A DNA stretch of 20,657 nt, taken from IMG/VR virus record IMGVR_UViG_3300006928_000138, positions 1 through 20,657 of that record. One strand, given 5' to 3'. Origin of the DNA: a virus. Position 1 is the first letter of the stretch; each line of letters opens with the position of its first letter. The translations under genes and the position numbers were made by a program. The notes beneath the pieces are model-generated. The model saw nothing but the letters and a program-made list of their open reading frames with translations. It did no database searches and was not told where the DNA came from. Of this stretch, positions 2,746-7,455 are shown piece after piece.

Positions 2746-4995
2746 ATGGAGAGTAATAGTAAAGCTGTTCTTGATGAAATGATAAAGTCCGTCATTACTC
2801 GTGACGGAAAAGGGTCAGCTGACACAATGCTGGTTAGTTCTCACTTATCCCAAATGAAGATGTTTGGTATAAGGCAGGGAGTTGAGTTCTATCCACAACA
2901 AGATAATTTTGGAACACAAAGATTTGATTTCATTCAGCAGGTTATAAAGTTTAATCAATTAGATGCAAGATTAGACGCAATATGGGATAGATTCTTAGCA
3001 TATGGAAAAGGATTATTTTATATAAGACCTACTAAAAAATCTTATAGAATTTATTGGTTTAATAAAGATTCTTATAGGACATATTATTCTCCTGAAGGTG
3101 AGCTAGAGGAAGTCGTAATTATTTACCCATATAAGGTTAAATCTTCAAAGGGTTTTTCTGGGGTGGGATTAAATACAGATAAAAGATATATGAGATTAAA
3201 AATTACTGCTACAGAAATAGAAGAATATCATGCAGAACAAGAAATAAAGTTTGATCAGGAAAATACAAATTTTGCAACTTTTGATAAAAAAATTGTAGAA
3301 AACACGATGGAGTTTATTCCATGTGTTGAAGTGTTTAATAATCCTGACGCATTTGGAACTGATGGTTCAGGAGAGTTTGATTTTATTGCTAATCAAATTA
3401 CTGCTCATGATGAGATGGTGAAAAATATAAGAGCAAACTTATCATTCTTTGGTAATCCAACTCTTCTATCATCTAGACCAAAACAAGACATTGTAGAAAG
3501 CGACTCTGAAACAGCACAAAGACCAAGTATATCTAGTCAATCAGGTTTTGCTTCGAATGTTGATTTATTTAGTTCTACTTATAAGCAGGATCCAATAACA
3601 AGACAACAGCCAGGATATGCAGGAAGACCAGGCAGTGGTATGAGAGTTCCTAGAGTTATTGCTAATTTAGAGCCATCTGACAGAGTAGGCTTTATAACTC
3701 CAAATGCTGTTAGTTCTGATCAAGCTAGATTCTCCGAACAACTTAGAAGTGAGATTAGATTGGCTCTTGGAGGAATAGATGATTTAAGTATCACTAATGT
3801 AACAGCTACAGAGATTAAATCTGCATACGGTCGTGTAAGTGCGACAGCTAAGAAAAAATGTTTACAGATTTACCAGTATGGAATTTGTAAAGTTTTTGAA
3901 TTAATTATTTTCCAAGAAGAACAAATTTTCAGAAAATCCTTAGCTTTTACTTCAGGAATAAAATATCCACAATTACCAGAAAATGACGAAGATCCAAAAG
4001 CTTTAGAAAAGTACGAAAAGCAAAAAATTAAATATGAACAAAAACTGCAACAAGCTATTAATACTGCAGTAGAAACAAGAGAAATTCCAGATGGAGTATT
4101 AGGACTAGCTCCTGATGGGGACAGGACAGTTCTTTGGAGGTGGATGGGTCCTGTTTATGAGGACACAGCTCAAGATAAACTCAATCAATCCATCTTCACT
4201 AGAAACCTTCAAGAATTGGGGGTTGATAGTATAGAAGCACTGAAGTACTTATTTCCTTCAAAAACTGACGACGAAATTGCAGCGATGCTTTCTGGTTTTC
4301 CGTTTAGAATGGTAGGTGAAGTACAAAGGGCATATTCCGCATTTATTGACTTAATAAATCAGGAAATGCGAACCCCACATCCTCAGCAGCCTAACTTACC
4401 GATGGCAGCTGATCCACGTTTGGATTTAACTCCATTCTTATATCGAACATTAGAAAGTTTACAAAAAGAGGTAACTTATGCAGGACGCTACCGCTCAGCA
4501 GACCCAATCAGCACCCCAGACATCCCCGACCCAGCAGAGCAGCTACGTGGCTCCTCAAGCAGCCCAAGCTCCTTCCGTGGCGACTTCCCAGCAATGGGTA
4601 GCCCCAACACAGGCAACACAGGCTCCAGCTCCAGTAGCTCAAGCCCAGATGGGGGTACAAGGGATCCAATACAACCCTACGCAGTATCAGCCCCAGACAC
4701 AGCAGGCAACTCCACAAGCGGAGAACCCTTACAAGGACGCATTCAACAGGGTAGTGGGACTCCTGAGTTCACCAGTTCAATTCCCGTTCCAGGGTCAACA
4801 GTCAGCAACGACTCCAGCAGCCGACCAAGCCAATTACGGATACCAACAAACAACCCCATACAGCAACGGGGGTCAGCAGACTTATATGCCTTCGAGCAAC
4901 AACAGCCAGGCATACTCCAACAACTCTTCCCAAACTTCTCAGGAGATAACCAACGACCAGCTCCTAGCCAACGGGGTAAGCGAGCAAAGTCTTGA
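2746..4995 (+). CDS. Portal protein with long Ser/Pro/Gly-rich C-terminal tail
   Basis: The portal forms the ring at the head vertex through which DNA enters. The first ~575 residues look like a portal: an N-terminal helical part with FNQLDARLDAIWDRF (from about residue 69), a beta-rich wing with FIPCVEVFNNPDAFGTDG, then a long helical region containing RSEIRLALGGIDDLS (about residues 332-347) and a K/Q-rich helix PKALEKYEKQKIKYEQKLQQ. It lies directly behind the terminase and before a scaffold-like gene, the usual order. The total of 749 residues is long. The final ~172 residues (from 578) are low-complexity S/P/G/N/Q sequence translated from the same DNA as the next gene's start, in another frame. 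The core assignment is good; whether the whole tail is needed is uncertain. Confidence 0.82.
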   Translation: MESNSKAVLDEMIKSVITRDGKGSADTMLVSSHLSQMKMFGIRQGVEFYPQQDNFGTQRFDFIQQVIKFNQLDARLDAIWDRFLAYGKGLFYIRPTKKSYRIYWFNKDSYRTYYSPEGELEEVVIIYPYKVKSSKGFSGVGLNTDKRYMRLKITATEIEEYHAEQEIKFDQENTNFATFDKKIVENTMEFIPCVEVFNNPDAFGTDGSGEFDFIANQITAHDEMVKNIRANLSFFGNPTLLSSRPKQDIVESDSETAQRPSISSQSGFASNVDLFSSTYKQDPITRQQPGYAGRPGSGMRVPRVIANLEPSDRVGFITPNAVSSDQARFSEQLRSEIRLALGGIDDLSITNVTATEIKSAYGRVSATAKKKCLQIYQYGICKVFELIIFQEEQIFRKSLAFTSGIKYPQLPENDEDPKALEKYEKQKIKYEQKLQQAINTAVETREIPDGVLGLAPDGDRTVLWRWMGPVYEDTAQDKLNQSIFTRNLQELGVDSIEALKYLFPSKTDDEIAAMLSGFPFRMVGEVQRAYSAFIDLINQEMRTPHPQQPNLPMAADPRLDLTPFLYRTLESLQKEVTYAGRYRSADPISTPDIPDPAEQLRGSSSSPSSFRGDFPAMGSPNTGNTGSSSSSSSPDGGTRDPIQPYAVSAPDTAGNSTSGEPLQGRIQQGSGTPEFTSSIPVPGSTVSNDSSSRPSQLRIPTNNPIQQRGSADLYAFEQQQPGILQQLFPNFSGDNQRPAPSQRGKRAKS
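4466..4472 (+). promoter_or_regulatory. Ribosome-binding site inside the portal gene
   Basis: AAGAGGT lies five bases before the ATG at 4478. It is one of the better Shine-Dalgarno-like sequences in the window and supports internal initiation of the scaffold-like gene inside the portal coding sequence. Confidence 0.6.
4478..4995 (+). other. Dual-coding overlap of portal tail and scaffold N-terminus
   Basis: Both frames are open for 518 bases. The plus strand is visibly C-rich and T-poor here compared with both flanks. Scaffold codons end in C (AAC, TAC, AGC, GCC) where those after the portal stop end in T. By my reading about 28 scaffold codons in the overlap are followed by a codon starting AA, AG or GA. 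In none before the portal stop is the third base T, which would create a portal-frame stop. After 4995 such T-ending cases appear at once (ATT AAT, CTT AAT, AAT AAT, ATT GAA, CAT AAG). Confidence 0.75.
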
Positions 4996-5482
4996 AGTAA
5001 TTAATCATTTTGGTGCAGATGCTCCTGCAATCCTTAATAATTATGCTTGTCAGATTGAAGATTCTTTAATTCAGACAAATCAGCAATTACAAGAAGCAGT
5101 AGGCTTATTACAAGAGATGTCAACAGAGCATAAGGCATATGAAAAGATTCTTACAGATCCAGATGTTTTAGCAGATTATACATGTGAGTTCTTTGGAGAG
5201 AATGGACCTTATCCAGTAGAAGATGAAGCACCAGCTGCTCCAACTTTTGCAGGTCAGCAACTACCTAACCCAGCTGCTGCACAAGGACAAGCTCAGGCTC
5301 AAGCTCCAGCTAGACCTCAAATGCCTGTTCCTCCACAGCCACAAGCTCCTACAAATTCACAGGACTTCTGGAAAGATTTCGGTGGAGCAGCCGATAGAGA
5401 TCCACAAAATGCTTGGAGATATTTAAATGCTGCACAGCAGAATCCACAAGTATTCCGTGAGAAACTTCTCGTAATGGAATAA
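4478..5482 (+). CDS. Probable head scaffolding protein
   Basis: The product has 334 residues. Residues 1-~160 are Q/A/P/T/S/N-rich low-complexity sequence. Residues ~160-250 are helical and acidic, including SLEVINHFGADAPAIL and QTNQQLQEAVGLLQEM. Another Q/A/P linker follows, and the end is a compact acidic/aromatic segment with DFWKDFGGAADRDPQNAWRYL. A helical, Q/A-rich protein between portal and coat is typical of a scaffold, which fills the prohead and leaves on maturation. No protease motif was seen. The start is supported by AAGAGGT at 4466. The first 518 bases lie inside the portal gene in the +1 frame, and codon use shifts sharply at the end of that overlap. A terminator follows its stop. 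Confidence 0.72.
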   Translation: MQDATAQQTQSAPQTSPTQQSSYVAPQAAQAPSVATSQQWVAPTQATQAPAPVAQAQMGVQGIQYNPTQYQPQTQQATPQAENPYKDAFNRVVGLLSSPVQFPFQGQQSATTPAADQANYGYQQTTPYSNGGQQTYMPSSNNSQAYSNNSSQTSQEITNDQLLANGVSEQSLEVINHFGADAPAILNNYACQIEDSLIQTNQQLQEAVGLLQEMSTEHKAYEKILTDPDVLADYTCEFFGENGPYPVEDEAPAAPTFAGQQLPNPAAAQGQAQAQAPARPQMPVPPQPQAPTNSQDFWKDFGGAADRDPQNAWRYLNAAQQNPQVFREKLLVME

Positions 5483-6309: not shown

Positions 6310-7455
6310 ATGTTTATAGATAACGATTTTCCGAAGCTGCTGGGTGCGGAACTGTATAGACCACATCCTGCGTATATCGTTGAAATGGCTTCCGAGCCTG
6401 TGGTAGTACATGACTTCACCAAGCAGCCAGGGCAGACCGTTCAACTCGATAGATACAGATTCTTTGGAAATCCAGGTACAAAAACTTCTCGTGAGCGTAC
6501 TCAGGATCAAACAATCGGAACTGCTAACAGCAGATCTATCGTAAAGGACAAGGTACTTGTATCTCTTAGGGAATATACAGGTCCTGCTGACCCTAATAAT
6601 ACAACTCTTCCTAGCACATTTAAGATTGCTAGAGAAACCCTAATGACAGCTCAGCGTCTATTGCTTGATACTGGAAACTTAAACATGTTCCATCAATCAA
6701 TTGGTTCGTTGACCTTGTTAGACGATTACCGTAGATGGAGAGACAGAGTATTCATTGATGAACTATTCAAATCTGAATCTCGTGGTGCTGCATCTGATAC
6801 ACAGGGTGGTTATTACTATCCAAATGGTAAGACAAAGTCAAACTCCACAACATTGAATGCTTACTCTGCTACAGAATATGCTTCTGAGCGTTTCAAGTTC
6901 AATGTTAAAACTGACCTCCTTGAGGTAGTTAAGAGTCTAAGAAAGCGTCACGTACCAGTATTCGCAGACGGATATTATCGTTGTATAGCAGATCCTTCAT
7001 TCATGAAAGATCTAAGAGCCGATCAAGGCTTCCGTGAGATAGCAAGATATCCAGGAATGGGTCAGGGTTCACCTTTAATGGGTGCTATGGCTCCTAACCA
7101 AGCAATCTATGCTGGTGGACAGTATGGACAAGCTCAGTTCGTAGCTGGTGAGCCAGTTATGCCTTCTGGATTCGTGTTTGAAGGAGTAAGATTCTTTGAA
7201 TCTACAAACTTCCCATCTAAGACAATTTCGGTCGATATTGGAGATGGAAACGGTGCATCCTCAAGAACAACTCCAGCAGGATTGTTCTTCGGTCCACAGG
7301 CAATTGGTGTTGGTATCGGTGGTCCTAACGCTCAAGTTTTAATTAACAATAATGATGATTTCTCAAGATTCATTATCCTTATATGGCAGCTTTATGCTGG
7401 TTTTGCAAACTTGAATAAGGACTTCATTACCACTTCCTTCACAATTACAGAGTAA
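6310..7455 (+). CDS. Probable major capsid protein
   Basis: The product has 381 residues, the size of many phage coat proteins. It lies after portal and scaffold, where the coat gene is expected. The sequence is a mixed alpha/beta soluble protein with no signal peptide or membrane segment. Features include a basic extended N-terminal part (SRERTQDQTIGTANSRSIVK, about residues 59-78), the segment FADGYYRCIADPSFMKDLRA near residues 218-237, and a Gly/Phe-rich C-terminal domain ending FITTSFTITE. The ADPSFMKDLRAD stretch resembles the N4 gp56-type coat group, but I cannot confirm the family. Codon choice is more C-ending than in the late connector genes, as often seen for abundant proteins. An AGGAGGT follows its stop for the next gene. 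Confidence 0.75.
   Translation: MFIDNDFPKLLGAELYRPHPAYIVEMASEPVVVHDFTKQPGQTVQLDRYRFFGNPGTKTSRERTQDQTIGTANSRSIVKDKVLVSLREYTGPADPNNTTLPSTFKIARETLMTAQRLLLDTGNLNMFHQSIGSLTLLDDYRRWRDRVFIDELFKSESRGAASDTQGGYYYPNGKTKSNSTTLNAYSATEYASERFKFNVKTDLLEVVKSLRKRHVPVFADGYYRCIADPSFMKDLRADQGFREIARYPGMGQGSPLMGAMAPNQAIYAGGQYGQAQFVAGEPVMPSGFVFEGVRFFESTNFPSKTISVDIGDGNGASSRTTPAGLFFGPQAIGVGIGGPNAQVLINNNDDFSRFIILIWQLYAGFANLNKDFITTSFTITE

Follow-up and report, generated by a model that had tools for sequence, protein, structure and literature searches.

In the microvirus phiX174 the internal scaffold gene B is nested in gene A, and in phage lambda the scaffold Nu3 is nested in C. The Rz and Rz1 genes of tailed phages overlap out of frame on the same strand. 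The locus described here resembles each of these systems in part. As in phiX174, a scaffold gene lies out of frame over another gene, but the phiX174 genome is a tiny single-stranded DNA with a nested gene, whereas the present overlap is a terminal one between two head genes of tailed phages, one of which, Synechococcus phage S-EIV1, has a genome of 79 kb. As in lambda C/Nu3, scaffold coding is shared with a head gene, although the lambda products are in frame and of one sequence, whereas here the frames differ and the sequences are unrelated. The likeness to Rz/Rz1 is an out-of-frame, same-strand overlap in tailed phages, but those are lysis genes and one is usually nested within the other. 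Among large DNA viruses, long overlaps between genes on one strand in different frames seem to be uncommon: a study of 12,609 virus reference genomes gives annotated +1 overlaps a median of 14 nt (interquartile range 8-26; PMC8903798). Among the titles listed in literature searches, none concerns a portal-scaffold overlap. Overlapping genes are already known; a long terminal out-of-frame overlap of two tailed-phage head genes is, judging from those titles, apparently new.

The DNA analysed, hereafter the window, is a 20,657-base virus record. It encodes a large terminase, a portal and a major head protein, and has a second ORF that overlaps the portal gene as well as two small ones. The features discussed below are as follows.

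996-2519: large terminase (phrog_38 match)
2746-4995, + strand: portal ORF, 749 aa
2746-4476, + strand: non-overlapping portal core, 577 aa (fold match and 56% identity to S-EIV1 CDS AHV82224.1)
4467-4471, + strand: Shine-Dalgarno-like AGAGG of the scaffold gene, within portal codons (from the sequence)
4477-4995, + strand: portal C-terminal tail in the overlap, 172 aa and stop, predicted disordered (ORF, conservation, selection)
4478-5482, + strand: scaffold-type gene, +1 frame relative to portal, 334 aa with its own ATG (ORF, model helices, gene position)
4478-4995, + strand: putative dual-coding overlap, 518 nt (ORFs, codon counts, selection, conservation)
4717-4788, + strand: scaffold-dominated segment, QAENPYKDAFNRVVGLLSSPVQFP (naive pN/pS; model helix 84-96)
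4837-4938, + strand: portal-dominated segment, RIPTNNPIQQRGSADLYAFEQQQPGILQQLFPNF (naive pN/pS and bootstrap; model helices 711-719 and 723-727)
5198-5359, + strand: scaffold linker, residues 241-294, matched internal control beyond the overlap
6310-7455: major head protein (phrog_1357 match)

The ORF coordinates bear out the starting observation of the first-pass annotation, that the portal and scaffold genes are both open over 518 nt in different frames. Taken as a whole, the locus is very probably a genuine dual-coding overlap, in which a portal tail and a scaffold N-terminus are made from separate starts.

The portal gene follows the large terminase gene (996-2519) and starts at 2746, and its identity is supported by the predicted fold. 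The model, of low confidence (mean pLDDT 50.9), matches PDB portals (Foldseek E 5.9e-8), and its 46 Foldseek matches at E <=0.001 are titled portal, neck, tail or vertex structures, with low TM-scores of 0.13-0.26 by query length. Predicted phage portals are also matched, and model residues 1-471 give, with VIA, Z 14.4 and rmsd 5.1 over 272 aligned residues. At the sequence level, the protein matches phrog_20475 'virion structural protein' (E 3.5e-215); the Pfam family PF05133 SPP1_portal (E 0.03) falls short of the cut-off, and a sequence search of the PDB gave no credible match. The start of the overlap coincides with the end of the last helix in the modelled core (562-580, low confidence). 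Beyond it, most of residues 575-749 have pLDDT <50, and the tail contains two short helices, 711-719 and 723-727. Serine, proline and glycine make up 42% of the window's portal tail vs 18% of the preceding 300 residues, and the last 25 tail residues carry a mean net charge of +5.6 (205 sequences). A motif in the tail, GSADL..QPGILQQLFPN, is conserved at the sequence level in both clades of relatives described below: looser expressions of it match 151 and 174 of 205 tails, and [LF]FP[NS] is present in 201, whereas a PIPVPGS-type sequence occurs in just 133.

The second product is named scaffold-type solely for its position and helical shape. Its gene lies between those for the portal and the major head protein, with the two small ORFs between it and the latter. 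The model (mean pLDDT 59) contains a long helix at 182-226 and further helices at 228-239, 295-307, 309-319 and 323-333, and its N-terminus is disordered except for helix 84-96. PHROG gave no match at 0.01 and Pfam no credible family, its best E being 0.095; a Foldseek search with the model returned nothing at E 10 or less. Glutamine, alanine, proline and threonine account for 52% of scaffold residues in the overlap in the window's clade, so that the low complexity ascribed earlier to both products holds. In both models the folded regions are for the most part encoded elsewhere, and the overlap itself codes mainly for disordered tails.

Both proteins occur in aquatic phages of a widespread family that is related to cyanophage S-EIV1 and forms two clades, that of the window and that of S-EIV1, with portal cores 56-58% identical between them. 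Portal scans of IMG/VR confirmed 552 and at least 596 stretches, in sets that may share contigs, and the best 80 of each were used. The overlap was counted in sequences reaching 700 nt beyond the portal core, by a rule that demanded an ATG in the +1 frame. Of 416 loci, 331 matched the portal C-terminus, and removal of 45 short sequences and 58 duplicates left 228 distinct ones. In these homologous junctions, whose alignment had been proposed as a check, the overlap is kept in 225 of the 228, over 464-677 nt (median 548), and in all 225 the lengths differ in steps of 3. A frame-free count started from 329 loci with a portal match, of which 51 were excluded as too short or with an incomplete portal end; an ATG was preferred where one existed. 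It found the overlap in 275 of 278 (218 distinct 600-nt sequences), every one of the 275 in the +1 frame and with an ATG.

A portal stop near 4478 with an intact scaffold, the arrangement named beforehand as speaking against dual coding, was found in one of the 228 sequences only, L004. Its portal is 99.7% identical to that of the window and has one nonsense codon 31 nt upstream of the scaffold start, with the tail frame open beyond. We read this codon, from the sequence, as probably a recent mutation or sequence error and not an ancestral state. The other exceptions are L018/L202, by a 134-nt deletion, and L172, set aside in the count of 275 of 278, in which portal tail and scaffold switch frame several times, suggesting an indel-rich assembly. 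In a further relative (L267, 1752-2447) the scaffold has a stop after residue 231, with the remainder in frame behind it and the portal tail intact.

Among the matches listed, the best 80 or first 120 of a capped scan, no overlap-free relative was found in INPHARED, in GTDB contigs or at loci with the terminase DNA pattern; deeper relatives may lie beyond those matches. INPHARED searches gave S-EIV1 and one match at E 0.7 for the portal, only S-EIV1 for the major head protein, and S-EIV1 with one 20% identical record for the terminase. Of four loci on GTDB contigs, L355-L357 reach the junction and have both frames, and L358 ends short. L355, L356 and L357, contigs of this phage family, come from bins that carry the bacterial titles bacterium and Bacteroidetes, and may be phage DNA binned in error; the portal match of L357 is fragmented. 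Fifty-three terminase-pattern loci lack a portal profile match. The family's terminase (64-87% identical) is present in 28, and in one of these a portal begins just where the contig ends. A further 25 loci include 23 that encode a scaffold or head protein of the family and in which the stretch ends before the portal is complete: 16 of the 23 extend into the overlap and match the portal tail as well, and 7 begin beyond it. The remaining two, L290 and L324, match nothing. L397 (1-2529) has the family terminase with about 2.5 kb downstream without a portal profile match, unlike the window and S-EIV1, and its gene order may differ.

S-EIV1 (KJ410740), the only phage in the annotated collection (INPHARED) with such a portal (56% identical to that of the window), has the same arrangement: an overlap of 554 nt in the +1 frame with homologous products, 70 of 164 aligned residues being identical in the portal tail and 145 of 312 in the scaffold. 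The difference lies in the deposited annotation, in which the scaffold is a downstream stub only (6327-6728 of L002), so that the overlap is absent from the record. The same record (KJ410740.1 59285-62010) misses the scaffold start. It also appears to miss the major head protein, whose tblastn match at 60859-61983 (+) falls in a region annotated with one CDS on the minus strand and a short one on the plus strand. Moreover, the S-EIV1 terminase (544-3084 of L002, which is KJ410740.1 53537-63285) has 846 aa vs 507 in the window; its residues 202-526 match a Pfam intein-splicing domain (E 1.4e-11), so that an intein, absent from the window's terminase, is probably present there.

The first-pass annotation had also offered a competing account, that a C-rich segment was acquired and the portal frame is open there by chance. 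Put more fully, only the scaffold reading would be genuine, and C-richness and Q/A/P/T codons would account for the lack of portal-frame stops. The chances of this were gauged from risk codons, defined as scaffold codons preceding AA, AG or GA, which create a portal stop when they end in T. A recount agrees with the earlier figures: none of the 28 risk codons within the overlap ends in T, and 9 of 23 do so in the next 85 codons, where at least eight had been claimed; over the entire rest of the scaffold the count is 13 of 39. The absence of T-ending risk codons in the relatives' overlaps is true by definition and is not evidence. When the window's scaffold codons were shuffled synonymously, the portal frame came out free of stops in 0.36% of 20,000 trials with the overlap's own codon usage (mean 4.5 stops), in 0.005% of 20,000 with whole-scaffold usage and in none of 5,000 with the usage of the window's other ORFs; the third frame of the real overlap has 7 stops. 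For 215 distinct relatives, shuffled 400 times each with overlap usage, the median probability of an open portal frame is 0.015 and the maximum 0.13, values that leave some room for chance, as does the fair rarity of risk codons in the overlap (15.7-16.6% of codons). The third frame has stops in all 215, which are not independent tests because of their shared ancestry.

The more telling comparison is with the scaffold linker beyond the overlap (204 sequences, one skipped as too short). In the two clades its Q/A/P/T content is 0.60 and 0.53 vs 0.52 and 0.47 in the overlap, its mean C content 0.33-0.34 vs 0.35, and its risk codons 13.8-16.0% of codons. Despite this likeness, T-ending risk codons abound in the linker (233 of 575, 41%, and 310 of 891, 35%), and portal-frame stops occur at 5.58 and 5.56 per 100 codons and in all but 4 of the 204 linkers. 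The linker, alike in composition and yet riddled with portal-frame stops, contradicts a portal frame kept open by chance, as do the portal-frame NN/NS ratios below 1 given below and the tail motif conserved in both clades; this account is extremely unlikely. One supporting claim of the earlier annotation was wrong: C-rich DNA is not limited to the overlap, since a further patch of it occupies about 5200-5400, in the linker that the portal does not overlap. C-richness therefore follows the scaffold's own composition and not the overlap alone.

Selection was examined in 205 distinct sequences, 78 from the window's clade and 127 from the S-EIV1 clade, with 1500 pairs sampled per clade. The tests that had been proposed were replaced by our own versions, including an OLGenie-like fourfold count implemented without a tree, which is neither FRESCo nor OLGenie itself. 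Synonymous change is reduced in each frame within the overlap, as had been anticipated. In the window's clade, portal-frame synonymous differences are 0.56-0.76 before the overlap vs 0.23-0.48 inside, and scaffold-frame differences 0.60-0.80 after it vs 0.18-0.58 inside. In the S-EIV1 clade, portal synonymous change declines already before the overlap (pS 0.59, 0.52, 0.46; L002 5435-5686).

The OLGenie-like values are given in the order close pairs and all pairs for the window's clade, then close pairs and all pairs for the S-EIV1 clade. Within the overlap the portal frame gives NN/NS values of 0.47, 0.54, 0.51 and 0.71, all four intervals lying below 1, and SN/SS values of 0.55, 0.38, 0.26 and 0.32, with three of four intervals below 1; the interval that includes 1 (0.27-1.50) belongs to close pairs of the window's clade. 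Portal-frame dN/dS in the overlap is therefore below 1 (0.26-0.71, seven of eight intervals). For the scaffold frame it is 0.12-0.41, with all eight intervals below 1. Most controls lie around 1 or higher: NN/NS is 1.25, 1.07, 1.06 and 1.00 in the third frame of the overlap and 1.55, 1.31, 1.57 and 1.43 in the portal frame downstream of it. However, the downstream third frame is not neutral (0.64, 0.67, 0.52 and 0.77, three of four intervals below 1), nor is one SN/SS of 0.60 with an interval below 1, so that moderate departures of dN/dS can stem from composition.

The selection result is carried by more than the OLGenie-like count. Between clades, portal tails match better than synonymous shuffles with a mean z of 7.4 and a minimum of 5.1 (41 pairs), vs a mean of 3.6 and a maximum of 5.7 for the third frame, whose z stays above 0 because shared ancestry stays in. 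Scaffold N-termini exceed portal-codon shuffles between clades with a mean z of 7.8. This last figure bears on the proposal that the long portal is real and the scaffold starts further downstream, its N-terminal reading being spurious. The S-EIV1 record is annotated in just that way, with a gene only at 6327-6728 of L002, and the scaffold frame stays open in 42% of portal-codon shuffles (10% with other-ORF usage), so that an open scaffold frame alone says little. The proposal is hard to reconcile with the scaffold-frame dN/dS values and the between-clade match, with the conservation of scaffold residues 80-104, which contain the predicted helix 84-96, or with a start site whose ATG and Shine-Dalgarno are conserved among relatives. 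The motif upstream of the scaffold is CAAAAAGAGGTAACTTATG in 40 and CAAAAAGAGGTAACCTATG in 19 of the 78 sequences of the window's clade, and CAAAAGGAGATGAGTTATG in 117 of the 127 of the S-EIV1 clade, where the Shine-Dalgarno is AGGAG; in both clades the Shine-Dalgarno is embedded in conserved portal codons. A spurious N-terminus is hardly credible.

An RNA or DNA signal could in principle lower synonymous change without two proteins being involved, and the first 28 scaffold codons are indeed highly conserved at the nucleotide level in the window's clade (scaffold pS 0.18). But no RNA structure signal was found in five window segments (z -1.39 to +1.34), portal-synonymous changes are favoured, and such a signal would not hold a frame open over 464-677 nt with lengths in steps of 3, which makes it a very improbable source of the pattern. 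Both readings appear, from the sequence comparisons, to be kept by natural selection, purifying in both frames.

The two proteins are constrained in different places. A map of naive single-frame ratios in 24-codon windows, which serve to compare the frames and not as absolute values, has the more constrained frame alternating along the overlap, the two clades being alike in the middle and at the motif. Between about 4507 and 4788 the scaffold is the more constrained (bootstrap support for a lower portal ratio 0.00-0.08), most of all at NPYKDAFNRVVGLLSSPVQF. At 4717-4788 the naive pN/pS is 0.14 for the scaffold and 1.96 for the portal, and at the matching place in the S-EIV1 clade 0.25 and 2.13. 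The portal dominates at 4837-4938, with 0.27-0.33 vs 0.93-0.97 for the scaffold (bootstrap 1.00, window's clade) and 0.37-0.47 vs 0.82-0.83 in the S-EIV1 equivalent (bootstrap 0.92-1.00). Short helices are predicted in both dominant stretches. The ends of the overlap differ between the clades: only in the window's clade does the portal dominate over the first codons, and in the S-EIV1 clade the scaffold dominates over the last. Across much of the overlap middle, and at the overlap end in the S-EIV1 clade, the portal has a naive pN/pS of about 1-2. The comparison of relatives thus shows both frames conserved and under what appears to be purifying selection, strongest at different places.

The proposed working of the locus is that ribosomes starting at 2746 would make the portal core, which ends near residue 577, and continue into a disordered tail that is rich in S, P and G and closes with a basic stretch. 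Others, starting at the ATG at 4478 with its own Shine-Dalgarno, would translate the shared 518 nt in the +1 frame into a disordered, Q/A/P/T-rich scaffold N-terminus, the helical part lying beyond the overlap. With a start signal dedicated to the scaffold, a single message would be read by two ribosome populations, each in its own frame, and both proteins would presumably be translated. A programmed frameshift fusing portal and scaffold, alongside or in place of separate initiation, is geometrically possible, both frames being on the same strand and overlapping, but its likelihood is very small given that the scaffold has a conserved Shine-Dalgarno and ATG of its own and that the portal frame is selected well into the overlap.

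Under separate initiation, the tail can be placed by analogy. The C-termini of portals face the head interior in P22 and other phages, so that the tail should sit among scaffold molecules inside the procapsid. The motif GSADL..QPGILQQLFPN could then be a docking peptide for scaffold or shell.

As to origin, overprinting and its direction are plausible. The scaffold frame may be the older: the portal would have lost its stop and run on into the scaffold frame, aided by Q/A/P/T codons, which seldom create stops in the portal frame. The Q/A/P/T richness of the scaffold continues in the linker and the portal before the overlap is not S/P/G-rich, which favours the portal tail as the newcomer and points, weakly, to an older scaffold frame. 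By codon usage, the two frames of the window's clade are equally atypical (-0.329 and -0.327). Those of the S-EIV1 clade differ slightly, the portal being the more typical (-0.114 vs -0.168 for the scaffold), and the scaffold frame is more typical in just 22 of 127 sequences; if anything, this seems to lean against scaffold-first, although not decisively. A fuller proposal, that a portal tail arose de novo by overprinting on the scaffold N-terminus and now docks the 12-subunit portal to that same scaffold, the overlap being kept by assembly and not by genome compression, is a tentative one and on balance doubtful. If the docking reading were true, a single DNA segment would write both partners of an assembly contact.

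The retention of a 464-677 nt overlap of head-assembly genes across a diverse aquatic phage family, with constraint divided between the two proteins, provides a natural system of hundreds of sequences in which to test how two proteins share DNA. It also points to an unannotated gene start in the isolated cyanophage S-EIV1 and predicts a portal tail motif that is testable in a cultured phage.
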